64,000 nt of DNA from Nostoc sp. JL34. GTDB lineage: Bacteria; Cyanobacteriota; Cyanobacteriia; Cyanobacteriales; Nostocaceae. Numbering within the stretch: the stretch's first letter is position 1; every line of letters starts with the position of its first letter. The notes beneath the pieces were generated by a model. It worked only from the letters and a program-made list of their open reading frames with translations, was not told the DNA's origin and searched no databases. Below, piece by piece: positions 9,572 to 58,095 of this stretch. Made by a program: the position numbers and the translations under genes. The stretch spans positions 1 to 64,000 of the forward strand of contig NZ_JABXKQ010000150.1 in NCBI RefSeq assembly GCF_017114945.1, in the 5' to 3' direction.

Positions 9572-11230
9572 ATGTTCTATAAATTACACTTCTTGCAGCA
9601 TATTTGGCGACAAATCCACCGAGTCGGAGCGTTACCCTATTTTAGTTTGTTACTTTGGATACTGCCCTTATTATTATTTACTTCTGGGCACAATAGTCTG
9701 ATTGCACATGATGAAGGACTTTACGCATCGCGTGCACGTCTGATGTTTGATTCTGGTAACTGGATATCTCCTTGGGAAAAAGCACATCATAAAACCCCTG
9801 GCCCTTATTGGTTAATTGCCAGTTTTTACAAGCTGTTTGGTGTGAGTGATACGAGTGCGCGTATTCCTAGTATGATTGCTGGCATTTTTAGCTTATGGCT
9901 TGTGTATGAAATCGGCAAAATTATGCTAGGCAAAAAAATAGCTTGGCTAGCTGCTGCAATTCTAAGTGTGCAATTTATCTGGCTGCAATACTGCCGCTTA
10001 AGCACACCTGATGTGCCGATGATTCTCTTGGTACTTTTAGCTATCTGGTCTTTAATAAAAACGGAATTACATCCTAAATATCGCTATTTTTGGAGTTTTA
10101 TAGCTGGTTTAAGTTTAGGTTTAGGCTTCTTGGTCAGAAGCTTTATGATTTTTTTGCCTATTGTAGCTTTATTGCCTTATTTAATTTGGGAACATCGCCG
10201 TCATCGTCATCTTACTAACCCAATTTTATATTTAGGTTTTTTTGTAGGTTTAATACCGACCTGTATTTGGCTGTGGTTAAGTTGGCTACATTACGGAAAT
10301 CAGAGTTTTGAGGAGTTATTCAAGTTCGTTGTGCAGTTAGGTTCTGATGACAATTCTAATAATGGCCCGCTGTTTTTTGTCTGGAATATCCCTTTAAAAG
10401 GATTTCCTTGGGCTTTTTTCGGACTTTTAGGTTTGTTTTTGACTCTCCGTCGTCCGATTTCTCGTTATCATTTGATATTAGTTGGCTTTCCACTTGTCCT
10501 ATTTGTAGAAATTAGTCTTTTTCGGACTCGTTTACCTCACTATGCTCTTTGCCTTTATCCGTTCATAGCTTTTTTTGCATCTGTGGGGTTGAACTGGTTA
10601 GGCAATATTTACCAAATAGAAATTCCCCCACAATTACCTCTTCAAAAGGGTAAAAACAATATATTAAACCTTTTTGCAATCAAAAATCTTCCTCGAAATC
10701 TTAGTTATGGCTTTGGTGGGTTAGGTGTTTTACTTGTTATCGCGGGTATTGTCGTTATTAGTTGGGGTGCTTCTGACATCCGCAAGTATGCAACTATTAG
10801 CTTGGTTCTAGGATTGGGTTGGTTAATTTTACCTGTGGTCTGGATTAGTCGTTACCACTTTGGCCAAAAGTTTCTTACAGCCCGTTATTGGATTGCAGGA
10901 TGGTTAATTCCCTGTTGGCTGGCTTTGGCGACGATGGGTAACATTGGGATGTTAAGTGACTATAACCCTACTTTGAGAACTTTCTTACAACAACCTGCGA
11001 TCGCATCAATTCTCAAAACTAATCCTATCTACATTGTGCAAATAGATGCTAAAACCAAAGTACTGCTTAATTTCTATCTTTCTAGTCGTCCCCAACAGGT
11101 AGTCTCTATTTCCCAAGTACCAGCTTTGAGTTATGCTTTGATCTATGCTGACCAGTCCCCCAAATTATCTACGCCTCACCGCATTGTCGGTACAGTCAAA
11201 GAGTACCAGTTAATTCAAGTTCTTCCCTAA
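9572..11230 (+). CDS. GT39/ArnT-like membrane glycosyltransferase
   Basis: About 552 aa, with 11-13 hydrophobic helices. The first periplasmic loop carries the acidic GT-C signature HDEGLYASRARLM (residues near 45) followed by KTPGPYWL and the DTSARIPSM segment. This is the layout of ArnT/PMT enzymes that transfer a sugar from a polyprenyl-phosphate donor. The acceptor (lipid, protein or polysaccharide) is not evident. The ATG at 9572 is preferred to a TTG at 9560; neither has a clear ribosome-binding site. Its last 33 codons and 45 bp of downstream sequence recur as a remnant at 13105-13250, on the far side of the next gene. Confidence 0.88.
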   Translation: MFYKLHFLQHIWRQIHRVGALPYFSLLLWILPLLLFTSGHNSLIAHDEGLYASRARLMFDSGNWISPWEKAHHKTPGPYWLIASFYKLFGVSDTSARIPSMIAGIFSLWLVYEIGKIMLGKKIAWLAAAILSVQFIWLQYCRLSTPDVPMILLVLLAIWSLIKTELHPKYRYFWSFIAGLSLGLGFLVRSFMIFLPIVALLPYLIWEHRRHRHLTNPILYLGFFVGLIPTCIWLWLSWLHYGNQSFEELFKFVVQLGSDDNSNNGPLFFVWNIPLKGFPWAFFGLLGLFLTLRRPISRYHLILVGFPLVLFVEISLFRTRLPHYALCLYPFIAFFASVGLNWLGNIYQIEIPPQLPLQKGKNNILNLFAIKNLPRNLSYGFGGLGVLLVIAGIVVISWGASDIRKYATISLVLGLGWLILPVVWISRYHFGQKFLTARYWIAGWLIPCWLALATMGNIGMLSDYNPTLRTFLQQPAIASILKTNPIYIVQIDAKTKVLLNFYLSSRPQQVVSISQVPALSYALIYADQSPKLSTPHRIVGTVKEYQLIQVLP

Positions 11231-11277
11231 GATAGATGCAAAGCAACTGTTGCTAAAAAAATTAATCTAGTTAGTGT

Positions 11278-13008
11278 TCAATTCTTCGTTACGACTTTGA
11301 TACATTCTGTTTTGAGAAGGACTAAATTATCAGTCTCAAAAACTGCACAAGAGTTAATTAATGTAGCTAAGACAGGTAGAGATTTCTCTAACTTTACCTT
11401 CGCTTGTTGTGCCTCTGGCTGATATTGTTGTAGCCAAGTGTTTTTAGTTATATATTCTGGAGTGAATGCAGAACGTTCTAATAGCCAAAAAGTTACGTGG
11501 TATTTTTGGATAAAGTCTTTAATCTGGTTAATATCTTCAGTATATTGGGCATTAATCAGATCAAGCATCCGTTTGCGAAATTGAGCGTAATATTTTGTAT
11601 GGATCGGTAAACCATATTCTTTACCCACCAAAATTGTTCTTTGAGCAAAGATGGGTATGTTATCTGCTTCTTGGGAAGTAGAGGCTATGACAATATTTTG
11701 CGGTTGCTTTTGCAAAAAATCATATAATGTTGGGGCTTGACCTGCTAAATAAGGGGTTTTGGGAAAAACTTTTAAGCTACTAGGGTACAAAACGAGTCCT
11801 GCACCAAGGATCATAATAGTCCCCAAGATTAAAATTTGTCTGCCATTTTGTCTCGACCATCGAAATGTAGCATCTAAAATCAAGGTAATAGAAATTGCTG
11901 CTGCGAGAGCAAGTACTATCTTAAAAGTATGATGGGTGTAGCGGCTAGGCCAGTGCAGTTTAAAAGCTAAGGCATGAGCAGTAAAAAACATGATTAAACT
12001 AGCTATCACTACCTGTAGTAATAGTTTTGCTTCATCCTTTACTTGCTTGCTGAGGATAAAGTGAGACTGGAATTTCAGGAGAATTGGTAATAATAAACCA
12101 AATAATAGTTGAGGAGGTGCAATTAAAGCAAAAAAACCGCTATCTCTACCATCAAACCAATAACTAATAACATTATGACTAAAATAGCTGACTCTTCCTC
12201 CACGCCAGTACTCCAGCATAGTTCTTGCAACAGCAGCAGTAATTGTCGGCCCAAATTGTGATGATTGAATGGCATAAGGTAGAATTAGAATACCAGCAAT
12301 CATAATGGCTGCTACAAATAAAATAAAATCTTTTCGGTTCTGAGAAATAGTTATCTGACCATTTTGCCAGCGAAATAATCTCAGAAATAAAATTAATAAA
12401 TCGACAAAACCTATTAAAGGATATATTAAACATTGGAGTGCAAGTACAATTAATATACCAAACAGAGAAAACCGTATTGAATAATATAGAAAAGCTAAAA
12501 AGAGGGGATAAATAAAATCTCTAGGAGTCCCAGAAAATAGGTCATCATGTAAGCAAAGACTTTGATTTAAAAGTAAAGATGCGATAAACCCCGCCATTGG
12601 CACTGGTAATATCTGCATACAAGCTACAAAGCAATAGCTAGTTGTAATGATTCCCAGTCCTATTGGAAAAATTTTACTAAAGAAAATTGGGTCGATATTT
12701 AAAACCGCAATTATTTTATAAAGAATACCATATCCAATTGGTGTAACCGACTGAAAATAATCAGCGATTAAATCCCCAGGAAATAAATCTGGGTTAAAGT
12801 AACGATACATCCAAGAAATATATTCCCGTGCATCATCGCTAACTATATATTTACTACTGAAAGCTTGTCGCAGCCCCATAATAATATAACCAACAGCAAA
12901 AGTTAGACTTAGACTGTACCAAAAGATGACAGTCAATCTAGATTGATTTTGTCTGCTTTTTTGAGTAATCGGTGTTGTTAAAACTTTTTGTAATTGTGGA
13001 ATTAGCAT
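11278..13008 (-). CDS. Large polytopic membrane protein, GT-C-like, function unknown
   Basis: A 576-aa protein with about ten hydrophobic segments in the first 410 residues and a soluble C-terminal domain of about 150 residues. An early extracytoplasmic loop contains VSDDAREYISWMYRYF, an acidic pair in the position used by GT-C glycosyltransferases, but no GT family was recognised with confidence. It is oriented opposite to the flanking GT39 gene. It lies exactly between that gene and a duplicated fragment of its 3' end, so it looks like inserted cargo. Confidence 0.75.
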   Translation of the reverse strand: MLIPQLQKVLTTPITQKSRQNQSRLTVIFWYSLSLTFAVGYIIMGLRQAFSSKYIVSDDAREYISWMYRYFNPDLFPGDLIADYFQSVTPIGYGILYKIIAVLNIDPIFFSKIFPIGLGIITTSYCFVACMQILPVPMAGFIASLLLNQSLCLHDDLFSGTPRDFIYPLFLAFLYYSIRFSLFGILIVLALQCLIYPLIGFVDLLILFLRLFRWQNGQITISQNRKDFILFVAAIMIAGILILPYAIQSSQFGPTITAAVARTMLEYWRGGRVSYFSHNVISYWFDGRDSGFFALIAPPQLLFGLLLPILLKFQSHFILSKQVKDEAKLLLQVVIASLIMFFTAHALAFKLHWPSRYTHHTFKIVLALAAAISITLILDATFRWSRQNGRQILILGTIMILGAGLVLYPSSLKVFPKTPYLAGQAPTLYDFLQKQPQNIVIASTSQEADNIPIFAQRTILVGKEYGLPIHTKYYAQFRKRMLDLINAQYTEDINQIKDFIQKYHVTFWLLERSAFTPEYITKNTWLQQYQPEAQQAKVKLEKSLPVLATLINSCAVFETDNLVLLKTECIKVVTKN

Positions 13009-13104
13009 TGTGCGCCTTTATGTCTGAATAAATCAGGAGTAGGGAGTAAGAAATCAGCCTTTTTTAGTTGTACGGAGTTTTTTCAAAAATATAATAGGAG
13101 TCCA

Positions 13105-13206
13105 ATGTATGCTTGGATTTATGCTGACCATTACCCGAAATTATCTACGTTTCACCGCATTGTCGGTATAGTCAAAGAGTACCAGTTGATTCAAGTTCTT
13201 CCCTAA
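13105..13206 (+). pseudogene. Duplicated 3' end of the GT39-like gene
   Basis: A 33-codon frame (MYAWIYADHYPKLSTFHRIV..., ending YQLIQVLP and stop) is nearly identical to the last 33 codons of the gene at 9572-11230. The match continues beyond the stop: aaagcaactgttgctaaaaa occurs after both copies, to about 13250 and 11275. A chance aggag precedes the ATG, so a small peptide could be made, but it lacks any transmembrane or catalytic part. It is the displaced or duplicated tail of the upstream gene. Confidence 0.85.
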
Positions 13207-13254
13207 GAGAGTTACAAAGCAACTGTTGCTAAAAAAGATTAATCTTGCTAGGAT

Positions 13255-13271
13255 AATACTACGCATACTAA
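13255..13271. promoter_or_regulatory. Putative MarR operator, copy 1
   Basis: The 17-bp word aatactacgcatactaa lies 12 bp upstream of the marR ATG. Two near-identical copies precede the efflux gene emrA at 13807 and 13847. The word occurs nowhere else that I noticed, so it is the likely binding site of the adjacent MarR regulator. This copy would serve autoregulation. Confidence 0.6.
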
Positions 13272-13282
13272 GTATTTTTCAA

Positions 13283-13750: not shown

Positions 13751-13806
13751 AGATGATCTCACAATCACCCGACCGGGGGAGGTCGTGTAAAGATATGTTT
13801 TGAGAT

Positions 13807-13823: not shown

Positions 13824-13846
13824 GGAAATAAGGATTTTTTTCAGGG

Positions 13847-13863: not shown

Positions 13864-13912
13864 ATAAACGACTATCAATCAAGTTATTGGACGAACAAGG
13901 GAGTTAACAATC

Positions 13913-22438: not shown

Positions 22439-22567
22439 AAGCTTCAAACATAAGTGCAATCACACATCATTACTTATCTATTTTCATAATCCATTTTTGG
22501 ATTTTCATTGCAGGACGCAAAGTTTCTTAGAAACGTTTGCGCCTTTGCATGAAATTATTCTTATCCT

Positions 22568-22712
22568 CCTTCCCACAACTTATCCCAGACAAACCTATCC
22601 TTTAATATTGAGTATCGTCACGTGTTTCTTACTGCACGATCAAATTCCGCAGTAATAGACGCATAATACCCGATCGCACTCCTGGCAAAGCATTTTTAAA
22701 GTCGATCGCAGC
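22568..22712 (-). pseudogene. Decayed duplicate of the 3' end of acs
   Basis: Read on the minus strand, the segment encodes FKNALPGVRSG-IMRLLLRNL, matching [21 protein letters not shown] near the C-terminus of the acs gene at 23761-25734. The gap is one lost codon at the regulatory lysine. The alignment continues almost without gaps to the acs stop region (ccttcccacaacttatcc against ccttctcgtaacttatcc), with about 60% identity by eye. It lies downstream of intact acs, on the far side of the TPR gene. The rest of spacer 22439-22750 shows only an imperfect hairpin near 22520. Confidence 0.75.
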
Positions 22713-22750
22713 AACTCTTTTTAACTTTTATCCAGTGAATAATATGACTT

Positions 22751-23431
22751 TCAGGAAACACCAGGCTCATCAGCAGTTTTGATCTCTTTTAAAATTCGTT
22801 CTACTTGGTTAACTTTTTCACCTCTATTTTGTGTTTTGAAAATATTTAAAGCTTTTTCTAAAGAAGATAGCGCCTCATCTTTTTTATTTGTTTGCCACAT
22901 TGCTAGTGCAAAATTAGTCAGTGCCTCGCCATAATTCGGATTAATTTCCAGAGCTTTTTTATATTCAGTAATGGCTTCTTCCCAGCGATTTTGACTTGCA
23001 TAAACCATACCGCTCGCATTGTAGGCTAAAGCATATTTTGGCTGGAGGCGAATGGCTTCTCGATAGGCGCTAATTGCTTCTTCTGATTTTTTTTGCTGAA
23101 AAAGTACGTTTCCTAATTGAAAGTGCCCAAAAGCATCTTCTGGGAATTTTTTAATAAATTGGCGTAAATTTTCTTCTGCACCTTTAAAGTCTCCTTGACT
23201 ATACAGAGTATTAGCTTGTTGGATTAGTTGCGATCGCTCTGGTGTCCCTGTACCTGAAGCTTGTGCTATTTTTTGTGGTTGTCTCTGTGCAGACTGTTCT
23301 GGCGAATGTAAAGAAACTTGTCCAGGAACCGCTAACACTAATGGTGATATTCCCATTCCACTGATAATACTCAGCATCATGCAGCCAATAGGTTGAACAA
23401 ATGCTGATTTGGATTTGCACTTCACCTTCAT
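22751..23431 (-). CDS. Secreted TPR-repeat protein
   Basis: A 226-aa protein. The first 40 residues contain a hydrophobic signal-like stretch (MMLSIISGMGISPLVLAVPG), so export to the periplasm or anchoring is likely. From about residue 70 there are four tetratricopeptide units (for example AYNASGMVYASQNRWEEAI and ALTNFALAMWQTNKKDEAL), which form a protein-binding superhelix. No catalytic domain is present. It lies between acs and a decayed duplicate of the acs 3' end, so it appears to be an inserted cargo gene. Confidence 0.88.
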   Translation of the reverse strand: MKVKCKSKSAFVQPIGCMMLSIISGMGISPLVLAVPGQVSLHSPEQSAQRQPQKIAQASGTGTPERSQLIQQANTLYSQGDFKGAEENLRQFIKKFPEDAFGHFQLGNVLFQQKKSEEAISAYREAIRLQPKYALAYNASGMVYASQNRWEEAITEYKKALEINPNYGEALTNFALAMWQTNKKDEALSSLEKALNIFKTQNRGEKVNQVERILKEIKTADEPGVS

Positions 23432-23760: not shown

Positions 23761-25734
23761 TTACGCGCCTTCTCGTAACTTATCCAATACACTGCGATCT
23801 TCCAATGTCGAAGTATCTCCAGATACCTCTTGTCCGGCAGCTAGATTCCGCAGCAAGCGCCGCATAATCTTACCCGATCGCGTTTTGGGCAAAGAGTCTG
23901 TAAAGCGAATTTCTCCAGGACGTGCGATCGCACCTATTTCTTTGACGACGTGCAGTTTAAGTTCTTTAATCAGTTCCTCACTTCCCTGATAAGTGCCTTC
24001 TAGAGTCACAAAAGCAACTACTTCTTCACCCTTAAGTTCATCTGGTTTACCCACTACTGCCGCTTCTGCAACCGCTGGATGAGAAACTAAAGCTGATTCT
24101 ACTTCCATTGTACCGAGTCGATGCCCTGAGACATTCAGTACATCATCCACACGACCCATTACCCAGAAGTAGCCGTCTTCATCTTGTCTAGCACCATCAC
24201 CAGCAAAGTAAGTATATTTACCATCTTGGGGCGGAATGTGTTCCCAGTAGGTGCGGCGAAAGCGTTCTGGATCGCCGTAGACTGTCCGCATCATTCCTGG
24301 CCACGGATGTCGCACCGCCAGATAACCGCCTTCGTTATTGGGTACGGTGTTTCCTTCCAAATCTACGACATCTGCAATAATTCCGGGGAAGGGAAGAGTT
24401 GCAGAACCGGGTTTGGTGGGAATCGCCCCTGGTAGCGGTGTAATCATGATACCGCCGGTTTCCGTTTGCCACCAAGTATCCACAATTGGACAGCGATCGC
24501 CACCAATAACTTTGTGATACCACATCCAAGCTTCCGGGTTAATTGGTTCGCCAACGGTTCCCAACAAACGCAACGAAGATAAGTTTCGCGCATTCGGATG
24601 GTGTTCACCCATCTTAATAAATGCCCGAATTGCTGTAGGTGCGGTATAAAAAATATTAACGCCGTATTTTTCAATTACATCCCAGAAACAGCCAGGATTA
24701 GAAGCACGGGGCGCACCTTCATACATTATCGTGGTTGCACCATTGGAAAGGGGGCCGTAGACAATGTAGCTATGTCCCGTAATCCAACCTACATCGGCAG
24801 TACACCAATATACATCTGTGTCCTGAAGGTCGAATATCCACTTAGTGGTGATATGGGTATACAGATTATAACCAGCAGTTGTATGCACTACACCCTTCGG
24901 TTTGCCCGTACTGCCAGAAGTGTAAAGGACAAACAGCATATCTTCGCTGTCCATTGCTTCGGCGGGACAATCTGCTGATACACCTTTTTGCAAATCGTGC
25001 CACCAATGATCGCGTCCGCCCAACTGCATATCAGTTTCTTGTCCGGTGCGCTTGACAACTAGGACGTTTTCTATACTGGGAACAGCACCATCAGCTAAGG
25101 CTTTATCTACCTGTTCCTTGAGAGGAACGATCGCATCTTTGCGCCAACCACCATCAGCTGTGATTACCAGTTTAGCTTGAGCATCAATTAAGCGATCGCG
25201 CAAAGCTTCGGCACTAAAACCACCAAATACTACGCTGTGGGGTGCGCCAATTCTCGCACAGGCTAACATTGCGATCGCAGCTTCGGGAATCATCGGCATA
25301 TATATACCGACGCGATCGCCTTTTTGTACGCCTAGTTGCTTCAATACATTAGCGAACTGGCAAACTTCCCGGTGCAGTTGGGCGTAGGTAAGGGTACGGG
25401 AATCACCTGGCTCTCCTTCCCAAATCAGTGCAGCTTTATTTTTGCGCCAGGTAGTGAGATGTCTGTCAAGACAGTTGTAAGAAATATTAATTTTACCACC
25501 AACGAACCACTTAGCAAAAGGTGGTTGCCAGTCTAAAACTGTATCCCATTTTTGGAACCATTCTAATTCTTTTCCAGCCAAATCTGCCCAAAATTGCTGT
25601 GGATCGGCTTTGGCTTGAGCGTAGAGACGCTGATAGTCATCCAGGCTTTTGATATGGGCGTTCTGCGAGAATTCCGAGGTAGGATGAAAAAGGCGGTTCT
25701 CTTGTAGGATTGATTCTATAGTTGGTTGAGACAT
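23761..25734 (-). CDS. acs: Acetate-CoA ligase (acetyl-CoA synthetase)
   Basis: A 657-aa AMP-forming acetyl-CoA synthetase of typical length. It converts acetate, ATP and CoA to acetyl-CoA, AMP and PPi, allowing acetate assimilation. The AMP-binding P-loop [12 protein letters not shown] lies near residue 280. The acetate-pocket region [11 protein letters not shown] is near 420, and the C-terminal [13 protein letters not shown] carries the lysine that is reversibly acetylated in this family. The spacer to the next gene downstream is interrupted by a MITE. A decayed copy of its 3' end is found beyond the TPR gene. Confidence 0.97.
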
Positions 25735-30032: not shown

Positions 30033-32540
30033 GTGGAAATAACAAAAGTTTGGAACATTATTTGGCATAACGAACCTTTTCATTGGGCAATTGCTTTTGT
30101 GTTAATAGTTGCAATTATTGTCGAGCTTTACACATTATTGCAGTATTGTGGCACAGATGGAGCCTCTATTAAATTTTTGAGTAATTTTAAAAAGGGTAAA
30201 AATGTAAAGCTTTCAAACAAAATTCGCCCCTGGTTAAAAGACCATCTAGGAACTGATGACTCTAGTAGATTCAGACAACAAGATGGTAACTTCATACTTA
30301 TAAAGTATCCATCTGTCTTAGCCCACCCAATACCTCGCAGTTCCCTACGCTTCGTGACAACCTTATGTACTGCTATTGGTCTTTTAGGAACCTTTTATGG
30401 TATACAACAGGGACTCCAAGGAATTAATTTATCTACAGAAGATACCAAAGAACTGATAACTGCCAGTAAAGAGCTACTGGTGGGAATGAAAACAGCTTTC
30501 TCCACTTCCATGATGGGGCTTGGTTCTGGTAGCTTGTTTCTTCTAGTTTTGTTTGGGTGTGATTCGCTACGCCAGATACGGCGTGATAGTTTGCGTCACA
30601 AATTGAAGGCGATCGCAACTTTAAAAACAACAGACAATGCCAACCATGAAATAGCTGAAGCACTTACTCTTGTAGCAAAAAACTTGACTGGGTTAAAGCA
30701 GCTAAATGCAGAAGGCATTGGTCAAGCTGTAGGTAGGAGTATTGCAGAACAACTCGCAGGTTTAAATCAGTTGTCAGCCCAAGCTATTGGTCAAGCCGTA
30801 GGTCAGCAGATTAAGCCAGCCTTGGGAGAAATATTCAAAGAACAGAAAAAACTCCGAGAAATTCAAGAAAACCAGGGACAGAGAGTTTTAGAAGAGCTCA
30901 TCAAAGATTTGCGAATTCAGGTACTCGAACCGATTGCAGATCGACTAGATAAAAGTGCAGAGTTAACCCAACAAGCTTCCGAAGCTGTGCTGACTCTGCA
31001 TAGAGAATTGAGTGGTATATCTCAAAGTTTGGCAAGTTCCATCCTGACAATTGAGAACTTTCAAAAAAAGACTTTGGTAGAACTCCAAGGATTTGCTAAG
31101 AATTTGGGAGACACTCTCAATCAATTTAAAACAGATACAAAAGGGGTTTTACAGCAAACAGCCGACGAAATTAATCGAGCTGTAGATCAGAGTATCCAAG
31201 GACTGACAGCCCAGCGAAGTGCTTTTGAAACAAGTGCAGTGCAAGCTGCTGCTACCTTCCGAGGAATTCGAGAGGAACTTCAGACAGCGCTACAAGAACG
31301 TGCAGCAGTAGAACAGCAGATGCTTCAAGGATTTGCTAACAATATGGGACAAACTTTGAGTCAATTCCAAACTGAAACTACGGCAGTTATACAACAAACA
31401 GCCCACGAAATTAATCGAGGTGTAGTTCAGAGTATCGAAGGAATGACAGCCCAGCGAAGTGCTTTTGAAGCAAGTGCAGTGCAAGCTGCTGCTACCTTCC
31501 GAGGAATTCGAGAGGAACTTCAGACAGCGCTACAAGAACGTGCAGCAGTAGAACAGCAGATGCTTCAAGGATTTGCTAACAATATGGGACAAACTTTGAG
31601 TCAATTCCAAACTGAAACTACGGCAGTTATACAACAAACAGCCCACGAAATTAATCGAGGTGTAGTTCAGAGTATCGAAGGAATGACAGCCCAGCGAAGT
31701 GCTTTTGAAGCAAGTGCAGTGCAAGCTGCTGCTACCTTCCGAGGAATTCGAGAGGAACTGCAAACAGCACTACAAGAACGCGCAATAGTAGAACAGGAGA
31801 CGCTTCAAGCTACTCGGACTGGAATTATCCATATTCTCACCCAAGCAAATAGAACCTTTCATGAGCAAACTAATACTCTACAAACAGTTGGTAATCAAGC
31901 TTCTGGGTTGATGAATGGTGCGAAGGATAATCTTCTGGCTACTTTAGGAAATATCGACGCAACACTCACAGCTACCCGCCAAACAGTAGAAGATGATTTG
32001 ACAAAATTTAGGGAAGAATATCAAACAAATTTACAGACATTCTTTCACAAACAAAACAACTTACTTGAGGTGACGCTAGGCAAACAACAGGAAGGATTAT
32101 CTGGGGTTGTGAATAATCTCGATCAAGTCTTCAGGGAGGAATTTGAAAGACGTAGTAAATTGACTCAAGAAGTAGACGAAAGTATGACAAAAATTCAGAA
32201 GTCCGTCGAACAAATTAACCAATTAGTTATTGCGGCTGGATTAAACGATTCACAACGACTAATACAACTAGCAAATCTTACTACTGATATTGCCAAGCAA
32301 GTGAACATAGTTGACAAGTCATACAAAAATTTGAATGAAAAATTCGATAATAGCCTTCAGGCTTGGCAAAGTCATCTTGAAGTTTCTATGCAAAGGACTG
32401 TTGATTCACAGTTAAGCTTTTTCCAGCAAGCAGATACTTCTATGGCTAGAGTTTGCGGAGGTTTACTAGAGACAGCAAAAGTTCTAGTTGCTGCACATGA
32501 TAACCGCCAATTTGGTAATAGTGGAAGTAGTCATGGATGA
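30033..32540 (+). CDS. zorA: ZorA-like MotA/TolQ-type motor subunit with long coiled-coil tail
   Basis: An 835-aa protein starting at GTG behind a strong gagggg site. Three membrane helices (about 16-36, 105-128 and 152-177) carry the MotA/ExbB-type motifs TAIGLLGTFYGI and GMKTAFSTSMMGLGSG found in ZorA. From residue 200 to the end it is a long helical tail with heptad character, as in ZorA, where the tail senses or transmits the phage signal. Residues 350-589 consist of three 80-residue repeats, two of them identical in DNA. With the ZorB-like gene overlapping its end it should form a proton- or sodium-driven 5:2-type motor in the inner membrane. Confidence 0.85.
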   Translation: MEITKVWNIIWHNEPFHWAIAFVLIVAIIVELYTLLQYCGTDGASIKFLSNFKKGKNVKLSNKIRPWLKDHLGTDDSSRFRQQDGNFILIKYPSVLAHPIPRSSLRFVTTLCTAIGLLGTFYGIQQGLQGINLSTEDTKELITASKELLVGMKTAFSTSMMGLGSGSLFLLVLFGCDSLRQIRRDSLRHKLKAIATLKTTDNANHEIAEALTLVAKNLTGLKQLNAEGIGQAVGRSIAEQLAGLNQLSAQAIGQAVGQQIKPALGEIFKEQKKLREIQENQGQRVLEELIKDLRIQVLEPIADRLDKSAELTQQASEAVLTLHRELSGISQSLASSILTIENFQKKTLVELQGFAKNLGDTLNQFKTDTKGVLQQTADEINRAVDQSIQGLTAQRSAFETSAVQAAATFRGIREELQTALQERAAVEQQMLQGFANNMGQTLSQFQTETTAVIQQTAHEINRGVVQSIEGMTAQRSAFEASAVQAAATFRGIREELQTALQERAAVEQQMLQGFANNMGQTLSQFQTETTAVIQQTAHEINRGVVQSIEGMTAQRSAFEASAVQAAATFRGIREELQTALQERAIVEQETLQATRTGIIHILTQANRTFHEQTNTLQTVGNQASGLMNGAKDNLLATLGNIDATLTATRQTVEDDLTKFREEYQTNLQTFFHKQNNLLEVTLGKQQEGLSGVVNNLDQVFREEFERRSKLTQEVDESMTKIQKSVEQINQLVIAAGLNDSQRLIQLANLTTDIAKQVNIVDKSYKNLNEKFDNSLQAWQSHLEVSMQRTVDSQLSFFQQADTSMARVCGGLLETAKVLVAAHDNRQFGNSGSSHG
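31081..31800 (+). repeat. 240-bp in-frame tandem repeat in the ZorA-like tail
   Basis: Three consecutive 240-bp units (31081-31320, 31321-31560, 31561-31800) encode the same 80-residue block of the ZorA tail. Units 2 and 3 are identical over at least the first 190 bp. Unit 1 is identical to unit 2 over most of its last 110 bp and diverged before that. The repeat keeps the frame and the heptad phase, so it extends the coiled coil. Confidence 0.95.
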
Positions 32541-46921: not shown

Positions 46922-47344
46922 ATGTTGAAAATCAAGCATTCGCAACTGAATTGGCTCTTAGCAGGTATGACTTTAGCAGTGATGGGTGTAAGCATTGCTC
47001 CAGCTTCCGCCCAACGTGTGTTCGTGATTGATGGTGGTTATGGAGTCAGGCGTAGCTGCGGAGCAGCTTGTCGTCAGACATCGCCTGCTGTCGGTTCCTT
47101 TATTTATGGTAGTCCGATTCCTACACCTATGCCTGTAGACCCAGCAACGGGATTAATACCACAACGCAATCATTACCGCGATTATTCCTATCCCCAGTTC
47201 AGGCAGAATGTGAGAAATCCCATCCTGATTAATCCGACAATTCGAGATTCAACCCTAGTTAATCCGATAATTATCAATAATTCATGGCGACGTACACCAT
47301 TTAGCGGTGGGCGATCGCGGGTTATTATTACCTATCCTCGGTAA
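46922..47344 (+). CDS. Secreted hypothetical protein
   Basis: A 140-aa protein from ATG 46922 (aggtgag ribosome-binding site), with a typical signal peptide (LAGMTLAVMGVSIAPASA, cleavage after ASAQ). The mature part is rich in Asn, Ile, Pro and Arg, with two cysteines (RRSCGAACRQ) and a repeat-like NPILINPTIRD / NPIIINNS. It is basic and probably periplasmic or extracellular. No family recognised. Confidence 0.75.
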   Translation: MLKIKHSQLNWLLAGMTLAVMGVSIAPASAQRVFVIDGGYGVRRSCGAACRQTSPAVGSFIYGSPIPTPMPVDPATGLIPQRNHYRDYSYPQFRQNVRNPILINPTIRDSTLVNPIIINNSWRRTPFSGGRSRVIITYPR

Positions 47345-47421
47345 AGCAGGGAAATGGGAAGATGAGGGATAAGCAACTCCTCACTCCTCACTCTTCACTT
47401 CTCACTCCTGACTCAGCACTC

Positions 47422-48318
47422 TTAAGAGGTAAACTGCGACCCCAGAATCATTGTCCCAATCCCAACATCAGTAAAGATTTCTAGTAATAGGGCGTGGGGA
47501 ATGCGACCATCAATGATGTGTGCTGCACGGACTCCTTGAGCAAGCGATCGCACACAACAACTCACTTTGGGAATCATCCCACCGCTGACTATACCATTAG
47601 CAATCAACTCGCGGGCTTCGCGAATATCTACTTTTGGAATCAAAGTAGATTGGTCTTTGTAATCTTTTAAAATTCCACTGGTGTCAGTCAGTAAAATTAA
47701 CTTTTCTGCTCCTAGTGCAGCAGCGATTTCTCCAGCTACAGTATCAGCATTAATGTTATAAGCTTGCCCTGTCTCGTCTGCGGCGACGCTAGACACTACC
47801 GGAATATAGCCATTGCTAGCGAGGGTGTCCAAAATCTTGATGTTAACATTGCTGACTTCCCCCACAAAACCGATGCCTTCTTGACCTTGGGGACGGGCTG
47901 TAAATAGATTACCGTCTTTACCGCAAAGCCCTACAGCCAATCCCCCAGCTTGGTTAATTAGCGCGACAATTTCTTTGTTAACTCTACCAACTAAAACCAT
48001 TTCCACCACATCCATTGTGGCGGCATCAGTAACCCGCAGACCATTTTTAAACTGTGGTTCGATGCCCAGCTTATCTAACCAACTGTTAATTTCTGGGCCA
48101 CCGCCGTGGACTACAATCGGACGCAAGCCCACGCAGGATAAGAATACAATGTCGCGGATAACCTTGTCTTTGAGTGTGCTATCTTTCATCGCTGCGCCAC
48201 CATATTTGACAACAACAGTGCGACCGGCGAATTGTTGAATATAAGGTAGTGCTTCGCTTAGTACACGCACACGAGTGGCTTCAGCTTGCCTGATGTATTC
48301 AGAATCGTTGTCCGTCAT
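47422..48318 (-). CDS. argB: Acetylglutamate kinase
   Basis: A 298-aa amino-acid kinase that phosphorylates N-acetylglutamate in arginine synthesis. [11 protein letters not shown] near 34-44, VHGGGPEIN near 70 and the substrate/ATP regions [19 protein letters not shown] and VSGGMIPKV confirm it. An N-terminal extension with a helix before the kinase core ([18 protein letters not shown]) is the feature of arginine-sensitive hexamers, which in cyanobacteria bind the PII protein. Single gene. Confidence 0.98.
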
Positions 48319-48415
48319 GAGGAGCCGCCGTTAAGAGTTAAAACCTATTTCAGTAAGTGTAGAAGACTTTGTAACTCGTCACAATCTCTGATGTCATTGA
48401 GTATGTTTGTACTGA

Positions 48416-48550
48416 TTATTCATAGCTGTTTGGTTCAGTGACGAGTTCACCATCTGGCATAATCGTATTGTAGAAATAAGCCCCATAGATTTCTGCGCCA
48501 AGCCAATTAACTTCCAATAAATTTGCATTTTCAAAATTGACACCCTCCAT
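48416..48550 (-). pseudogene. C-terminal fragment of a pentapeptide-repeat protein
   Basis: A 44-codon frame (MEGVNFENANLLEVNWLGAE..., ending YNTIMPDGELVTE...) has the A-N-L pentapeptide periodicity and the TIMPDG ending common at the C-terminus of cyanobacterial pentapeptide-repeat proteins. The long N-terminal repeat domain is missing; upstream there is only the dispersed repeat gtaggcgtagcccgtcgtag. It could be a tiny gene but is better seen as a remnant. Confidence 0.6.
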
Positions 48551-48601
48551 ACGAGTAAGTTACGCTCATCCAGTGTAGGCGTAGCCCGTCGTAGACATCG
48601 T

Positions 48602-48796
48602 TTGATAAAATTACAAGAGAAAATGCAGGAGTACATCGATAACGGTACATCACTAGGCTGGTTAATCGATCGGCAGAATCGAAAAGTCTACATTTACCGT
48701 CCGAATCGAGAATTTGAAATTTTGGATAATCCTGAAGCAGTTAGTGGCAATCCAGAATTACCAGGATTTGTCCTACGGATGGGCAAAATTTGGTAA
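48602..48796 (+). pseudogene. C-terminal fragment of a Uma2 family gene
   Basis: 64 codons (LQEKMQEYIDNGTSLGWLID..., ending LPGFVLRMGKIW) correspond to the last third of a Uma2 protein, after the nuclease residues. The 5' part has been lost at the junction with the dispersed repeat gtaggcgtagcccgtcgtag (48575-48594), which also borders the pentapeptide fragment. No translation signal precedes it. Confidence 0.75.
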
Positions 48797-48807
48797 CTTG
48801 AGTCTTC

Positions 48808-48899
48808 TTAATGAAAAACTTGTGTTTTGAGAACGCTAGGAATTGCCTCAAGTATTTGCTGAGAGTAAAGTGATTTTCGTTGTTCGAGGAGCGATCGCA
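48808..48899 (-). pseudogene. Duplicated, shortened 3' end of aroK
   Basis: Compared with the aroK 3' end at 49660-49805, the words ttaatga-aaac, ggaatt-cctcaagta, gagagtaaagtg and gaggagcgatcgca (one change) recur in the same order. About 60 bp are deleted in the middle. On the minus strand it would read RSLLEQRKSLYSQ...ILEAIPSVLK. It abuts the xisI stop codon exactly, so the xisHI pair is framed by two aroK tails. Confidence 0.85.
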
Positions 48900-49235
48900 T
48901 TACGCTACGCCATAATCTGTATACTGACGCTTGTATGGAGCTTGCAAACCCAAGACAATATCCTCTCGTGGTACTCCCATCATTACTAATTCCTCTGCTG
49001 GATTGCGATCGGTTAAGTTCTGTTGCAGCCAGATTTTGCCATCTTTAATATCAAAATGCATCGCGCATCGATAAATACGATTAAATCCTTGCCAACCGAC
49101 ATTCATCCATTGATAATGATTGCGTTCTGTATCTAAAATCAGTTGAACTTCGACATTATTATCCGAGACATCATCACTAGCATAGTTCGTCAACAATGTT
49201 TTCACCAATTCTTGATATTTGGCTAATTTATCCAC
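48900..49235 (-). CDS. xisI: XisI family protein
   Basis: A 111-aa XisI protein. MDKLAKYQELVKTLLTNYA, ILDTERNHYQWMNVGWQG, VYRCAMHFDIKDGKIW-like YRCAMHFDIKDGKIWLQQN and the PREDIVLGLQAPYKRQYTDY ending are diagnostic. XisI and XisH were first described as factors needed for excision of the fdxN element in Anabaena heterocysts, but many stand-alone pairs exist. It overlaps xisH by 13 bp. Confidence 0.95.
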   Translation of the reverse strand: MDKLAKYQELVKTLLTNYASDDVSDNNVEVQLILDTERNHYQWMNVGWQGFNRIYRCAMHFDIKDGKIWLQQNLTDRNPAEELVMMGVPREDIVLGLQAPYKRQYTDYGVA

Positions 49236-49660
49236 TGTACAATCACCTCATTTTCCGGCTCATAAACAATTAACAAGACCTGATACTGTTTTATCGCAGT
49301 TTTAGTAAATTCAAGTTGAAAAAATGTTTTGTACGTATCCAATGGAACTGCTAAGTATAATACTCGCTCTGGTTCATATCCTGCTAACGCTAGACGGTAA
49401 CTAAGAAATTGTCCCAAAGCAGAATAAAAATCTGTAATTGCCGAGGGGTTTAAAAAGCTTTTGATTTCAATTGCTATTTTTTCATTTCCTTTTTCTGCGG
49501 CAATTATTTTCTCTACGCCTAAATCAATTTGGAAGTTGACTTCCCCAAATTTGAATTTTAATGGATCGCTTGTAATTATCCATTGTTCTTTTTGCAAAGC
49601 TCTTTTAACTGATTCATGAAAAATATCTTTTGCAGACACAGTTAGATTAATATTTCCCAT
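49223..49660 (-). CDS. xisH: XisH family protein
   Basis: A 145-aa XisH protein with a PD-(D/E)XK-like fold. AKDIFHESVKRALQKEQW is at the N-terminus, then FQIDLGVEKIIAAEKGNEKI and AIEIKSFLNPSAITDFYSAL with the E-x-K pair. Its ATG overlaps the aroK stop (TAATG), so it is translationally coupled to aroK, and xisI follows with a 13-bp overlap. The pair may be a nuclease/partner module. Excision control of fdxN is known only for the original pair. Confidence 0.95.
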   Translation of the reverse strand: MGNINLTVSAKDIFHESVKRALQKEQWIITSDPLKFKFGEVNFQIDLGVEKIIAAEKGNEKIAIEIKSFLNPSAITDFYSALGQFLSYRLALAGYEPERVLYLAVPLDTYKTFFQLEFTKTAIKQYQVLLIVYEPENEVIVQWIN

Positions 49661-50205
49661 TAATGAGAAACAGCTTTTTTCAGGATGCCAGGAATTCCCT
49701 CAAGTACTCGCTTGGCAACGTCTTCAGGTGTATCTCCCTCTCGCTCAGTGATGTGCAAATCGGCTTGAGAGTAAAGTGGTGTTCGTTGTTCAAGGAGCGA
49801 TCGCAATTTACCTTTAGGATCGGCATCTTGTAGCAATGGTCTTGTGATATCCTCAGCTAAACGGTTGTAAATTATCTCCACTGGTGCATCTAGCCACACT
49901 ATCAAACCGTGGTGCAAGTAACCCCAGTTTTCTCGCTTCAGTACAATGCCCCCACCAGTTGCTATAGTCAACTTTGTAAAAGCACAAACTTTTGAAAGTA
50001 CGTCGCTTTCTAACTGGCGAAACCCTGCTTCACCAACTTGTGCAAATAACTGGTTGATAGATTTACCTGTGGCTTGGGCAATGACATCATCAGTATCCAC
50101 AAACCCATAACCCAATTCCTTTGCTAGTAAGCGCCCTACCGTCGTCTTACCAACGCCCATAATACCAATTAAGTACAGGTTGACTCCTTGTAATAAGCTG
50201 CTCAC
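49660..50205 (-). CDS. aroK: Shikimate kinase
   Basis: A 181-aa P-loop kinase of the shikimate pathway. GIMGVGKTTVGRLLAK (residues 14-29), the shikimate-binding DTDDVIAQATGKSI, and the central VATGGGIVLK-like TIATGGGIVLKREN are present. It starts at GTG with ggag about 11 nt upstream. Its stop codon is fused to the xisH start, and a shortened copy of its last ~150 bp lies beyond xisI. Confidence 0.96.
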   Translation of the reverse strand: MSSLLQGVNLYLIGIMGVGKTTVGRLLAKELGYGFVDTDDVIAQATGKSINQLFAQVGEAGFRQLESDVLSKVCAFTKLTIATGGGIVLKRENWGYLHHGLIVWLDAPVEIIYNRLAEDITRPLLQDADPKGKLRSLLEQRTPLYSQADLHITEREGDTPEDVAKRVLEGIPGILKKAVSH

Positions 50206-50377
50206 CAGTTGCTTCGCTCCAATTATGAGTTTTGAGTCACAGTTTCAAATTATAGACTTAACGACTCATCCGTGCGTATTCAAGTAATGCCTGAGTTAAG
50301 CTGCGACTGGAAAAGCGATCACTAATAAGCTGATAATTAGAATATAATTTGTTCTTATAGGAGTGTTTCTCGATAAG

Positions 50378-50719
50378 ATGTCTAAGATACCAGTAATCTC
50401 AGAACACATTGAAATTACTCCAAGTGTGTGCGGAGGTAAACCGCGCATTGCTGGACACCGAATTAGAGTGCAAGATATTGTTATTTGGCATGAAGGGATG
50501 GGACTTTCCCCTGACGAAATCGTTGATCATTATCCTAGTATTACTTTAGGTGATGTCTATGCTGCTCTAGCTTATTACCACGATCATCAAGATGAGATCA
50601 GGCAAGAAATTGCAGAAGGAGAAGCCTTTGTCAGAGAAGTACAGGCTCAAACTCCTTCGATTCTGCAAGACAAACTAAAGAATCGAAATGACACAAAAAA
50701 TTCGATTCCACCTAGATGA
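50378..50719 (+). CDS. DUF433 antitoxin-like protein
   Basis: A 113-aa protein of the DUF433 family (VapB-type winged/HTH antitoxins paired with DUF5615 toxins). EITPSVCGGKPRIAGHRIRVQDIVIWHEGMG and VDHYPSITLGDVYAALAYYHDH are its hallmarks (each shown in part of the chain near residues 12-75). The ATG at 50378 is used, with aggag further upstream. Its 3' end overlaps the following DUF5615 gene, which is broken. Confidence 0.92.
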   Translation: MSKIPVISEHIEITPSVCGGKPRIAGHRIRVQDIVIWHEGMGLSPDEIVDHYPSITLGDVYAALAYYHDHQDEIRQEIAEGEAFVREVQAQTPSILQDKLKNRNDTKNSIPPR

Positions 50720-51020
50720 AAATGTCAGTGATGCTATAGCAAAAGGCTTACGTCGTCGTGGTAGTGACGACTACATCAGAAACAGGATTGATAGCTGCAT
50801 CAGATGGAGAACAGCTTTATTTTGCAATGTCTCAGAATCGGGTAATTTTCACCCATGATGATGACTTTGTAATACTTCATCAAGTGGCCTTATTATGCAT
50901 ACAGGAATTATTTACTGCGCTCAGAACCGCCGGTCAATTGGGGAAATATTGAGGAGTTTAATTTTAATCTGGGAAGTTATTGAGCCTGAAGAGATGAGAT
51001 ATCAACTTGAATTTCTCTGA
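50688..51020 (+). pseudogene. DUF5615 PIN-like toxin gene with two frameshifts
   Basis: The gene starts IRFHLDENVSDAIAKGLRRR in one frame. It then continues VVTTTSETGLIAASDGEQLY, MSQNRVIFTHDDDFVILHQ in a second frame from about 50758. From about 50900 it ends HTGIIYCAQNRRSIGEILRS, LILIWEVIEPEEMRYQLEFL in a third. Read across the frames it is a complete DUF5615 nuclease with the D-E-N and HDDDF acidic motifs. Two small indels have destroyed it while the DUF433 antitoxin stays intact. Confidence 0.88.
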
Positions 51021-51960
51021 AAGCTTTTATGGTTTTACTCAAATGCAAAAAAACTAGACGCTATGCGTAGCTTGCTTGCTTCCACGTTCGCGCAGTGTCC
51101 TGTAGGGAAGAAAGAAATACAGTAAGCTTTCTTGGGAAATACCTACGCGTAGCTTACTTAAAGTAGGTGTATGCTAACGCATCCTGGGCGACTCCAGTTT
51201 TTCACCTTCACTGAGTATCTGGTTTAGTTACTCAGCATTTATTCTATGTATTTATATAATCTATTCAAAAGATAACTCTACACAGTATTGCTACTAAGAT
51301 TTTGATCGGCGACATCAGCAATTTCCGTAGTAATATAACCACAAAGCAAACCTCTGAGAAATTTATTTTCAACGGATGTCAAGGCTTTTCACTTTGCAGA
51401 TCTCAAGCTTTCGTAGAAATTTTCTAACTTTCAATTATTTTTAAATAATACAAATTCATCTTTGTATTTGAGTTGAATTCACTGCTGTTATTACTGCCAT
51501 TAATGTATTTAAAGTAACTTAGGCAAGAAATTAACCATTTTTATGTGAAATTTCCATAAGTAATAAATGATGAATTTGTAAAGAATGTAGTAAATTTCCT
51601 GATGTAACTTGGTAATTGCTGCATAGCGATCGCGGTGCTTAACAAAAAAATTAACGTAGCTTGTTTGAAACTTTATCCAAACAATATCTGTCTATCTAAA
51701 TAATCAGGGTTTTTACTCTGGTGGATAATTTCAAGTATACATAATACTGTGTTTCTAAAAGTTCAGTATCGTTTCTCTAAAAGTTCAGTTATAACAAGCT
51801 CTGCTCAATTAAATGTTTTTGATAAAGGTGTAAATAATGACTTATTTGCTGCGATCGCTCAAAAAAACCTTACGAAATTGAAGTTTTGGCACAAAGACTA
51901 CTGCATATTTCACCCCAATAAGCCTGAATGAATAAATATAGTATGAATGAGGTGTCAACT
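51021..51960. other. Long gene-free AT-rich region
   Basis: The first 160 bp hold dispersed-repeat words (gctatgcgtagcttgcttgc, acctacgcgtagcttactta). The rest is AT-rich and lacks a convincing gene. A 60-codon frame at 51749 has no ribosome-binding site or family-like sequence. A gene or regulatory RNA that does not code for protein could be missed here. Confidence 0.5.
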
Positions 51961-52155
51961 ATGACTCGAATTCGTGATGTTGTACAAAAAGCTTTAGCAA
52001 CTGGCTATTTGACAGTGGAAGCTGAAGATCAACTACGACAACTGTTGACTACCCGATATGACTTAGAAGATTTTAATGCTTTCATGACTTTGCAAGAAGC
52101 TGCCATGACTGGTAAGGTCAAGCAGGAGTCTAGAGAGCGGTGTGGCATCAAGTAG
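51961..52155 (+). CDS. Small conserved-looking cyanobacterial protein, 64 aa
   Basis: MTRIRDVVQKALATGYLTVE, then AEDQLRQLLTTRYDLEDFNA and a FMTLQEAAMTGKVKQESRE ending. The ATG has gagg 8-9 nt upstream, and an earlier ATG at 51928 lacks one. It is helical and charged, resembling a family of short proteins I recall only from cyanobacteria, without known function. The last residues (RCGIK) differ from what I would expect, so the 3' end may be altered. Confidence 0.7.
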   Translation: MTRIRDVVQKALATGYLTVEAEDQLRQLLTTRYDLEDFNAFMTLQEAAMTGKVKQESRERCGIK

Positions 52156-52873: not shown

Positions 52874-52879
52874 AGCAAT

Positions 52880-56039: not shown

Positions 56040-56089
56040 GCAGTGAACCGACCTTTGGTCAAAACATCATTTTTTGTCTAATCTGGTTC

Positions 56090-56385
56090 TTTTCTGTATA
56101 CCCTCACGGCTTACAGAAACAAGCTGGAAACTAATTGCCCTGAAGTAAGACTTCCTAAGTTCTAAGGAAAGGAAGCCCGACCCAGCAAGAGCGGGAAACT
56201 ACTCCCGCAGTTTCGAGCAAAGGAAGCCCACCCACGAACAACTCTGGGCGTCTACGAACTTCTCACTGCAAGATGCTCTCAGAATTTGCCTGCGTTCAAG
56301 TCCCTTCACCTAACCAAACTTCAGATTGCACGCCTGATTAAAATTTAGCCCCGCTAAGTAATTACGCGACGGGTTTTTGAGAAGC
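56090..56385 (+). ncRNA. Structured intergenic region, candidate non-coding RNA
   Basis: Between rnr and the next gene lies a GC-richer stretch without an ORF but with local inverted repeats: tcct...agga at 56150, a perfect gcggga-aactac-tcccgc hairpin near 56190, and gccca...tgggc near 56230. It ends with agccccgctaagtaattacg and gcgacgggttttt, a terminator-like stem and T run on the + strand. The words ggaagccc recur twice. It could be a small RNA gene (6S-like length) or, read on the other strand, the rnr leader. I could not match it to a known family. Confidence 0.35.
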
Positions 56386-56431
56386 TGGGTTTAGAGAATC
56401 CATACTGCCCAAAAGCGCTATGCAGGGGAGC

Positions 56432-56493
56432 CACTGCGGTCTTCTCCCTTTGCGTTAGCCTCTCCCTTTGGAGAAGGGGAGAAGACCGCAGTG
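56432..56493. repeat. Perfect 17-bp inverted repeat (cruciform)
   Basis: cactgcggtcttctccc (56432-56448) and its exact reverse complement (56477-56493) flank a 28-bp centre with gagaagggg-type hairpin sequences. This is a dispersed palindromic repeat, without coding capacity and without a flanking duplication visible by eye. Confidence 0.85.
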
Positions 56494-56839
56494 ACGTGGA
56501 AACTACAGGTGTTTGATTGTCTAGAGTGAAGGTAATTTTACGTCATTAGACTCTGATTTTTAACTAGGAGGAACTGCCGGTGAACCCAATTTTCCCACAT
56601 GTAGAATCGGTAACAATTAGGTGAGCAGCTTAATAAGCAGTGAGGGCGAACCTTATCTCCATTATTGTAGATTTAGAGCGCACTTCCAGAAAATAGTTGT
56701 AGATATCGAGTTGGGTCATCAGTATAGCATTGCAGGCAAGACTACCCAGATAAGTTAGCACTAGCCAAAAATTTCGTCAAAACAGAGCTACTGCTACAAT
56801 TGGGACACAAGGCAAAGCAAGAATATTACTTTAAAAGGG

Positions 56840-56975
56840 GTTGGGGATTGGGGACTGGTGATTAGAGATTGGGTATTAGGTATTAGGAATTAAGATTAAA
56901 ATAATTCTTTCTCAGTCCCCAGTCCCCAATCCCCAGTCCCCAGTCCCCAATCCCCAATCCCCAGTCCCCAACAGA
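56840..56975. repeat. Heptamer repeats forming self-complementary arms
   Basis: ggggattggggactgg words in the first part are complementary to ccagtccccaatcccc words in the second, separated by gggtattaggtattaggaatt-like sequence. The spacer 56494-56995 holds only this, AT-rich bases, and the ATG-proximal sequence of the next gene. Confidence 0.75.
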
Positions 56976-56995
56976 TTTAGATTGGTAGCAGTATT

Positions 56996-57880
56996 ATGTT
57001 GGCTCAATTCCAGAGCTTGTATCCCCAGGGCAGTTTGATTTCTGAATTAGTGCAAATTTTTCAAGGAAAATATATTGTCCGGGCAAGCGTACAAATTGAA
57101 GGTGTAACCCGTGCTACGGGTATGGCAGCGGCAGAAACAGTAGAAGCAGCAGAAGACCAAGCCAGAACCAGGGCGCTGATAGTTTTGGGGATTACAAATG
57201 CGCCACAAGAATCAGTGGTGTTGACCTCAAATCCAATTTCCCCGGCGCAGCTAAACCCTCCCTTAAACACCAAAGGAGGATTAAATGAGCCTGCTGCCTA
57301 TTCCTCTGTGAAAGGTGAGGATTTTGTTAGTAGTCAATGGCCAGTGACCAGCGACAAAGAAATATCTATCCCGCCCTCCAAAGGACGGAACATCAAACCA
57401 GAAGTAGTAACAAGTAACGAACAGTACGGGTACAGCAATGCTGCACCCCTAAACGATGATACCTATAGCCAGGATTTAGGTCAAAACTTTCCTGTGACTG
57501 CCAACCGAGAGTTAGAATTTGATCCTCCAGTTGAAAGCTTGGAAATAACCTTTGATAACCAAGTAGAAAATCAAACCTTTCCTGCAATTTCTGCCAATAA
57601 TGTCACACCATTTACACCTCGGAGTTACAGCCCTCAAGAGAATCCTGCCACCCCGTCAGTGACAGGAAAGAGGAAGAAGAAAGCTGAACCCGTGGATTTA
57701 TCAGATGTAATTGCTAAAACAGATGTCGAACTTCAGCGTTTAGGTTGGACACCAGAACAGGGACGGGAGCATCTGGTTAAAACCTACGGTAAGCGGGGGC
57801 GGACTTTGCTGACTGAAGAAGAATTGCACGGATTCCTCAAATACTTACAATCTGAGCCAGACCCAATAGCGGGATTTTGA
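56996..57880 (+). CDS. Cyanobacterial conserved-looking protein, unknown function
   Basis: A 294-aa protein with two ordered ends and a disordered middle. Residues 1-65 (LISELVQIFQGKYIVRASVQ, then THRATGMAAAE-like TRATGMAAAETVEAAEDQAR) resemble strand-helix units of single-strand annealing or dsRNA-binding folds. Residues 100-240 are low-complexity. The C-terminus (TDVELQRLGWTPEQGREHLV, RTLLTEEELHGFLKYLQ) resembles the helical tail seen in Rad52-like proteins. A nucleic-acid role is speculation. Its last 27 codons recur in decayed form at 58015. Confidence 0.75.
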   Translation: MLAQFQSLYPQGSLISELVQIFQGKYIVRASVQIEGVTRATGMAAAETVEAAEDQARTRALIVLGITNAPQESVVLTSNPISPAQLNPPLNTKGGLNEPAAYSSVKGEDFVSSQWPVTSDKEISIPPSKGRNIKPEVVTSNEQYGYSNAAPLNDDTYSQDLGQNFPVTANRELEFDPPVESLEITFDNQVENQTFPAISANNVTPFTPRSYSPQENPATPSVTGKRKKKAEPVDLSDVIAKTDVELQRLGWTPEQGREHLVKTYGKRGRTLLTEEELHGFLKYLQSEPDPIAGF

Positions 57881-58014
57881 TTTGTCATTAGTCATTAGTC
57901 CTTTGTCCTTTTAATTACTAAGGGTCAATAACAAAAGACGTAGGCTCTTGAAACAGTAACGAAGCTACGGAAACTGGGAATTTTTTTGAAGTAATTGCTC
58001 AAATAAAGCGATCG

Positions 58015-58095
58015 CTTACTTTGCTTAAAGAAGTAGAATTACTAAACTTCCTTCAATATCTCTGATGTCAGCCAGACCCATTAGCGGGATTTTAG
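58015..58095 (+). pseudogene. Decayed duplicate of the 3' end of the preceding gene
   Basis: 27 codons align without gaps to the last 27 codons of the gene at 56996-57880: LTLLKEVELLNFLQYL-stop-CQPDPLAGF against RTLLTEEELHGFLKYLQSEPDPIAGF. It has an in-frame TGA at 58063. After the stop both copies continue with tagtcattagtcc-like sequence. About 130 bp without a gene separate the two tails. The rest of spacer 57881-58238 holds the clpP terminator. Confidence 0.8.

Follow-up and report, generated by a model that had tools for sequence, protein, structure and literature searches.

We analyzed a 64,000-nucleotide stretch of the genome of Nostoc sp. JL34 (contig NZ_JABXKQ010000150.1; hereafter the window, to which coordinates refer unless another contig or locus is named), and in particular a pair of genes, xisH and xisI (together XisHI), that lies between the intact shikimate kinase gene aroK and a decayed second copy of its 3′ end. 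The intact aroK (49660..50205, minus strand; PF01202, E 1e-52) is followed on the same strand by xisH (49223..49660; PF08814, E 8e-56; structure matches to 2inb and 2okf), whose ATG overlaps the aroK TAA, and by xisI (48900..49235; PF08869, E 2e-44; structure match to 2nlv, E 7e-70). The stop codon of xisI abuts the decayed aroK tail (48808..48899, minus strand), which starts at codon 134 with TGCGATCGC (HIP1), spans codons 134 to 181 with a loss of about 54 bp, and ends at a stop codon. The recurring part of aroK consists of its last 48 codons (49663-49806), to which the copy aligns in two pieces, with 92.5% and 77% identity, when the window is compared with itself. Only XisH and XisI are encoded between aroK and the tail copy, and the unit contains no integrase gene. 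Beyond the copy, the DNA continues as the flank that is found in empty relatives lacking XisHI (G002, G004, G009, and G016; related genomes and loci are cited by our own G and L numbers). Comparison of positions 47000-52000 with a plasmid collection gave no match.

The state of the aroK site was examined in 49 of the 53 genomes of the genus: 16 carry XisI, 3 carry remnants (G011, G030, and G043), 29 are empty, and the remaining match, in G045, is a spurious one of 23 bp. Using tblastn, the tail copy was detected in 19 genomes, and in 17 of these it starts at codon 134. Two of the genomes counted as empty have unusual arrangements. G013 (L144), one of the 17, carries a tail copy from codon 134 that is 4.5 kb away from aroK (aroK at 261-806, tail copy at about 5275-5418), with other genes between them, one of which is putatively kinase/SUMF1-like as judged from its sequence; no xisHI remnant was found between aroK and this copy. 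In G052 (L161), aroK is followed at a distance of 128 bp by another xisHI pair, with identities of about 43% and 33% to the usual one, small pieces of which are found about 3 kb further along. The XisHI family itself is widespread, being present in 53/53 genomes of the genus and in 119/148 genomes drawn from the order, often in many copies. The genome of the window comprises 7.8 Mb in 184 contigs. On its contig 156 (13568-14099), an xisH interrupted by several stops has decayed beside a still recognizable xisI, and on contig 66 (12620-13564) a same-strand tail copy is located about 2 kb downstream, with 75% identity over 162 bases, close to another xisHI pair.

For the history of the pair, we compared the divergence of XisHI with that of aroK and acs, the acetyl-CoA synthetase gene. 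Third-position differences were 0.186 for the aroK body, 0.132 for the aroK tail, and 0.107 for xisI (120 pairs each), 0.184 for acs (91 pairs), and 0.112 for xisH (78 pairs), and the xisI value was below that of acs in 88 of 91 pairs. In Mantel comparisons across 14 genomes, the distances of the aroK body correlated with those of acs (r 0.76, p 0.0005); the correlations with XisHI were r 0.11 (p 0.14) for the aroK body and r 0.20 (p 0.06) for acs. Both the distances and the Mantel comparison indicate that XisHI spread faster than its host gene aroK, and they show that XisHI has been shared sideways among Nostoc genomes and that the aroK body has been inherited vertically.

The two aroK ends differ in type. 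The intact tail is of a KK-type in 13 of the 16 XisHI genomes and in all three remnants, and the tail copy is of a K[TPI]Q-type in every copy that reaches that point (17/17), which is also the type of 23 of the 29 empty genomes. In other words, in most filled genomes the intact edge is unlike the native type, and the decayed piece is the one that looks native.

Beyond aroK, small cargo next to a displaced gene end is also seen at other genes that have an xisH-xisI pair. In G006 and G058, acs and a copy of its tail (codons 596/597 to the end) enclose another xisHI pair, and the native flank follows the copy; these copies are closest to the intact tail of their own genome (0.934 and 0.949). XisHI with a tail copy is also found behind a CobN-like gene (L242 and L244) and a Roc-COR gene (L256). 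At all these 3′-end targets the duplications stop at the stop codon or within a few bases of it, the border at acs shifting by a few bases with the alignment settings. There are mirror cases as well, in which a 5′ piece of the target precedes xisH and the intact gene follows xisI; the targets are a Rieske gene (L196), a methyltransferase gene (L302, L303, L307, L312, and L314), and probably the gene after L197. At the methyltransferase site, XisI or a piece of it is present in 18 of 30 genus loci and absent from 12, and 13 of the 18 XisI traces end exactly 89 bases before the start of the gene. All 17 readable loci with an XisI trace have an E-type methyltransferase edge; because 9 of the 12 loci without a trace have it too, and the 5′ fragments differ (N-type in G052, E-type in G054), the edge evidence at this site is weak. 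At L302, L307, L312, and L314, the xisH frame extends upstream into the region of the 5′ fragment, so that the pair may use the start signals of the methyltransferase gene.

The direct repeats are about 147 bp long at aroK and 170-185 bp at acs, far beyond the target duplications of transposons. Direct repeats were found around 16 of 80 XisHI loci (four of them at aroK). The same loci, probed at shifted anchors, gave repeats in 28 of 1466 cases; neither set is fully independent. A second set gave flanking repeats at 14 of 68 loci, as against 2 of 700 random cross-locus pairs; two of the 68, both negative, were already in the first set, leaving 14 of 66 fresh loci.

XisHI thus sits at fixed junctions, is present in some relatives and absent from others, and occurs at both 3′ and 5′ gene ends. 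We consider it moderately probable that the aroK locus represents an XisHI unit that is exchanged sideways and arrives with a matching gene edge, and that the other three genes of the window with a tail copy (acs, a GT39-type glycosyltransferase gene, and the gene at 56996, all described below) have other histories. The DNA bringing in the xisH-xisI unit would include the corresponding edge of the target gene, and homology within that gene would anchor one side, so that the gene stays intact and acquires the incoming edge. The other side would be joined without homology inside the recipient's gene, by which the recipient's own edge would be pushed beyond the unit and then decay. Once installed, the cassette would pass between strains when its flanks undergo ordinary homologous recombination.

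Several observations weigh against this exchange scenario. Identity over the whole tail gives a mixed picture, as only 9 of the 19 aroK copies are less like the intact tail of their own genome than the mean empty genome is, and the copies of G055 and G061 are close to their own intact tails. The KK-type also occurs in 6 of the 29 empty genomes, and the tail type alone leaves the direction unfixed: loss by recombination between the two tails would yield K[TP]Q empties as well. The deletion of about 54 bp is common to many copies, which shows that the cassette moved as a whole rather than being freshly inserted each time. At acs, the copies that are nearest to their own tail may suit a plain long target duplication. 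Several of the flanking repeats belong to interspersed repeats instead of being pieces of genes (L394, L401, and L424, for example). Not all of the XisHI loci count as independent, seven of them being located behind one and the same CobN-like gene, and no transfer event has been observed.

Some of these observations also fit a single old insertion, accompanied by target duplication, in the ancestor of Nostoc, followed by vertical inheritance and many losses through tail-tail recombination. The junction shared by nearly all copies, the shared deletion of about 54 bp, and the KK-type tails of the most divergent empty genomes (G005, G008, G013, and G014) favor such a history. The XisHI distances, however, do not track those of the aroK body or acs; between G040 and G048, for instance, third positions differ by 3% in XisHI, 24% in the aroK body, and 20% in acs. 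We therefore regard an ancient insertion as unlikely.

A second alternative, which we rate as equally doubtful, is homing, in which XisH would cleave gene edges that lack the unit, perhaps at CGATCG/HIP1, and repair of the break with a filled copy as template would install XisHI together with a replacement edge. Free-standing homing endonuclease genes are present or absent at a conserved gene and spread faster than their host gene, and XisHI resembles them in both respects, although in its case the cutting of the empty site is hypothetical. To our knowledge, no nuclease activity has been reported for XisH. PMC1189080 names the XisH family as a member of the PD-(D/E)XK superfamily, and five family members share an invariant D46 and E65-x-K67. 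In the first set, the gene-internal boundary coincided with CGATCG at 5 of 7 targets, against a background of 1.4% of positions, which was striking; the fresh set did not confirm this boundary rule, with both copies flagged in 2 of 14, looser scoring removes the CGATCG flag at L138, L188, L189, and L256, and HIP1 is very common in these genomes. A broader form of the same idea, that xisH-xisI would be a free-living selfish unit of cyanobacteria, in which XisH, partnered by XisI, opens unprotected HIP1-type (CGATCG) sites close to where core genes begin or end, and repair installs the pair with a replacement 3′ or 5′ edge that leaves the gene functional, we likewise hold to be improbable; if true, it would account for the presence of the family in all genomes of the genus (53/53) and in 119/148 of those from the order.

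Less probable still is that a recombinase acting in trans, similar to XisF, integrates XisHI units carrying a replacement gene end. Many integrative elements carry such a replacement end, and the replacement of the target edge matches the logic of integrases. The protein families are those of XisH and XisI of the fdxN element of Anabaena (PF08814 and PF08869), where, according to parts of PMC4874684, both proteins are needed to assist XisF in excision; their roles are also treated in part of PMC2674450. The pair at aroK stands alone, without a recombinase gene in the unit, its junctions lie at different genes without a visible common core site beyond HIP1, and 5′-end and 3′-end versions both occur.

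The other three tail copies of the window were compared with the gene orders of relatives. The intact acs (23761..25734, minus strand; PF00501, PF13193, and PF16177) is followed on the same strand by a TPR protein gene (22751..23431) and then by an old, frameshifted copy of its 3′ end (22567..22724; amino acids 603-656 at 22724-22567; tblastn E 0.002, blastn E 6e-6). The TPR gene was considered as an insert. Among the genus loci, 29 of 30 have it within 1.5 kb after acs, as do 12 of 27 loci from other genera; it is therefore not a recent insert, and we rejected it as cargo in favor of a long-standing neighbor. Degraded acs tails follow the TPR gene in seven genomes (that of the window, G002, G003, G037, G039, G049, and G058), and the copy in the window is an old remnant beside this neighbor.

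At the GT39 locus, the intact gene for a GT39/PMT-type glycosyltransferase (9560..11230, plus strand; PF13231), which we read as a newcomer allele, is followed by a gene on the minus strand for a 576-amino-acid protein (11278..13008) and by a remnant of the GT39 3′ end beside a MarR gene (13108..13251, plus strand). The repeat pairs 11132-11274 with 13108-13251 (89.6% nucleotide identity, E 6e-48). The 576-amino-acid protein has no Pfam match, and neither PADLOC nor NCBIfam gave a match for it, for XisH, or for XisI. In G063 the order is a methyltransferase-like gene, GT39, and MarR; in G052, G054, and G004, the 576-amino-acid gene separates the methyltransferase-like gene from GT39, and it occupies the same place in G061, where GT39 is missing. 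In G000, G003, G050, G057, and G058, its place is between GT39 and MarR, and a GT39 tail follows it. In the last four of these, the sequence beyond it corresponds to the intergenic region of the G052/G054/G004 type until roughly 30 to 85 bases before the GT39 start, where it switches to the GT39 tail, the length of which varies from 22 to 71 amino acids. The simple reading is that a second GT39 arrived upstream of a resident GT39 gene, which then lost its middle part, in which case the copy would be the remnant of the resident; the 576-amino-acid gene, the supposed cargo, is then most simply an old, resident neighbor, although it could alternatively have moved with its own promoter region. For loci with the 576-amino-acid gene between GT39 and a GT39 tail, the left flank was checked in the window only; the match of the 5′ flank there is weak (63-68%, with one 26-base piece at 88%), and the tail in the window resembles its own intact gene most (90.9%). 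The tails of G003 and G050 are nearer to those of empty genomes (89.8 versus 82.5%, and 89.1 versus 79.6%).

The fourth locus contains an slr1353-family gene (56996..57880, plus strand; NF058667, E 8e-106) and a decayed copy of its C-terminal part without any cargo (58006..58108, plus strand), recognized by self-comparison (57803-57893 versus 58018-58108, 72.5%, E 1e-6). The C-terminal stretch (about amino acids 228-294) occurs in tandem just downstream of the gene in G046, G010, G043, G012, and G052, among others, and also elsewhere in genomes. The locus, one of the four grouped under the proposed insertion route, is instead an array of tandem domain copies.

For the general claim that 3′ ends are preferentially duplicated, we scanned a sample of 853 kb with 588 open reading frames (ORFs), made up of about 452 kb of the genome of the window (window included) and 400 kb of G002 in 20 stretches. 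ORFs of at least 100 amino acids were called by a simple procedure, and the first and last 180 bases of each were compared with 5 kb on each side, ignoring matches inside other ORFs. A first scan of lower sensitivity had overlooked the aroK and acs copies, and short decayed copies elsewhere may therefore also be overlooked. On the same strand, at E ≤ 1e-3, the 588 ORFs gave 9 downstream and 7 upstream tail copies, and 4 upstream and 6 downstream head copies; the opposite-strand classes comprised 2 to 6 ORFs each. Downstream same-strand tail copies belonged to 4 of the 54 ORFs of the window and to 5 of the 534 outside it, the window having been selected on account of its tail copies; against the scan as a whole, these copies are less conspicuous than they look. 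Outside the window, 5 downstream tail copies compare with 4 upstream head copies (7 upstream tail and 5 downstream head copies), and at E ≤ 1e-5 the respective numbers are 3 and 1 (3 and 2). There is hence no excess of 3′-end over 5′-end partial copies, the result named in advance as speaking against the original prediction, and the 5′-end versions of XisHI likewise mean that 3′ ends are not special.

Among the four loci, only aroK combines genes that are present or absent among relatives (XisH and XisI) with a tail copy at fixed junctions. The four decayed same-strand copies thus exist as described, without the common history ascribed to them, and a recombination-driven gain of small cargo next to a displaced end applies to aroK, not to GT39, acs, or 56996. 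That one cassette-like 3′-end insertion mechanism produced all four, as their identical orientation and superficially similar order had suggested, is very improbable, as the differing histories read from the gene orders of relatives and the lack of a 3′ excess outside the window effectively rule it out, and XisHI has 5′-end versions.

Calling the route undescribed was too strong as well, since comparable routes are already in print. Nobusato et al. reportedly described in 2000 the insertion of restriction-modification genes with long target duplication in Helicobacter pylori. Such insertions are described in PMC1643837 and cited in PMC3031569. XisHI resembles them as a small mobile gene set with a long duplication, no transposase, and nuclease-linked cargo, and in that empty relatives have one copy of the stretch and no insert (29/49 at aroK). 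It differs in its cargo, which is PF08814 and PF08869 and not a restriction-modification system, without a PADLOC match; in that the duplications at known gene targets end at gene edges; and in that, at aroK, the displaced copy is native-like and the intact edge looks foreign (the edge types differ in 13/16). Homology-facilitated illegitimate recombination, which uses homology on one side and illegitimate joining on the other (PMC3240628 and PMC5361080), likewise places foreign genes beside a displaced fragment of a gene of the recipient, and the arrangement at the XisHI loci would fit such a route. The recurrence of one gene pair at many targets is not expected from generic recombination, however, and the Nostoc case is known from sequence comparison, not from laboratory observation. 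The shifted-back 3′ end of an effector gene is described in the same part of PMC5361080, which also covers the Rhs/contact-dependent inhibition and type VI secretion effector arrays, where old gene ends accumulate downstream of a new module; in those arrays the 3′ end is the variable module, whereas here the gene encodes a housekeeping enzyme. From integrase-type elements at gene 3′ ends, the XisHI unit differs by the lack of an integrase gene. In the literature that we searched, a limited collection, we found no account of XisHI mobility at gene edges.

The window also contains three tandem 240-nucleotide repeats (31083-31802) within the ORF at 30033-32540, and short tandem repeats with a spacing of about 42-63 nucleotides (81-244).

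The finding that several unrelated causes underlie the order of gene, cargo, and broken gene end means that relatives should be compared before a single mechanism is inferred from it. Insertions that have long duplications and need no transposase have received little study, and XisHI adds a second kind of cargo to them. The main known role of XisH and XisI is to help in a single developmental excision of DNA; for the many copies in cyanobacteria, an exchange from strain to strain at exact edges of core genes, accompanied by a duplicated gene piece, offers a testable role.

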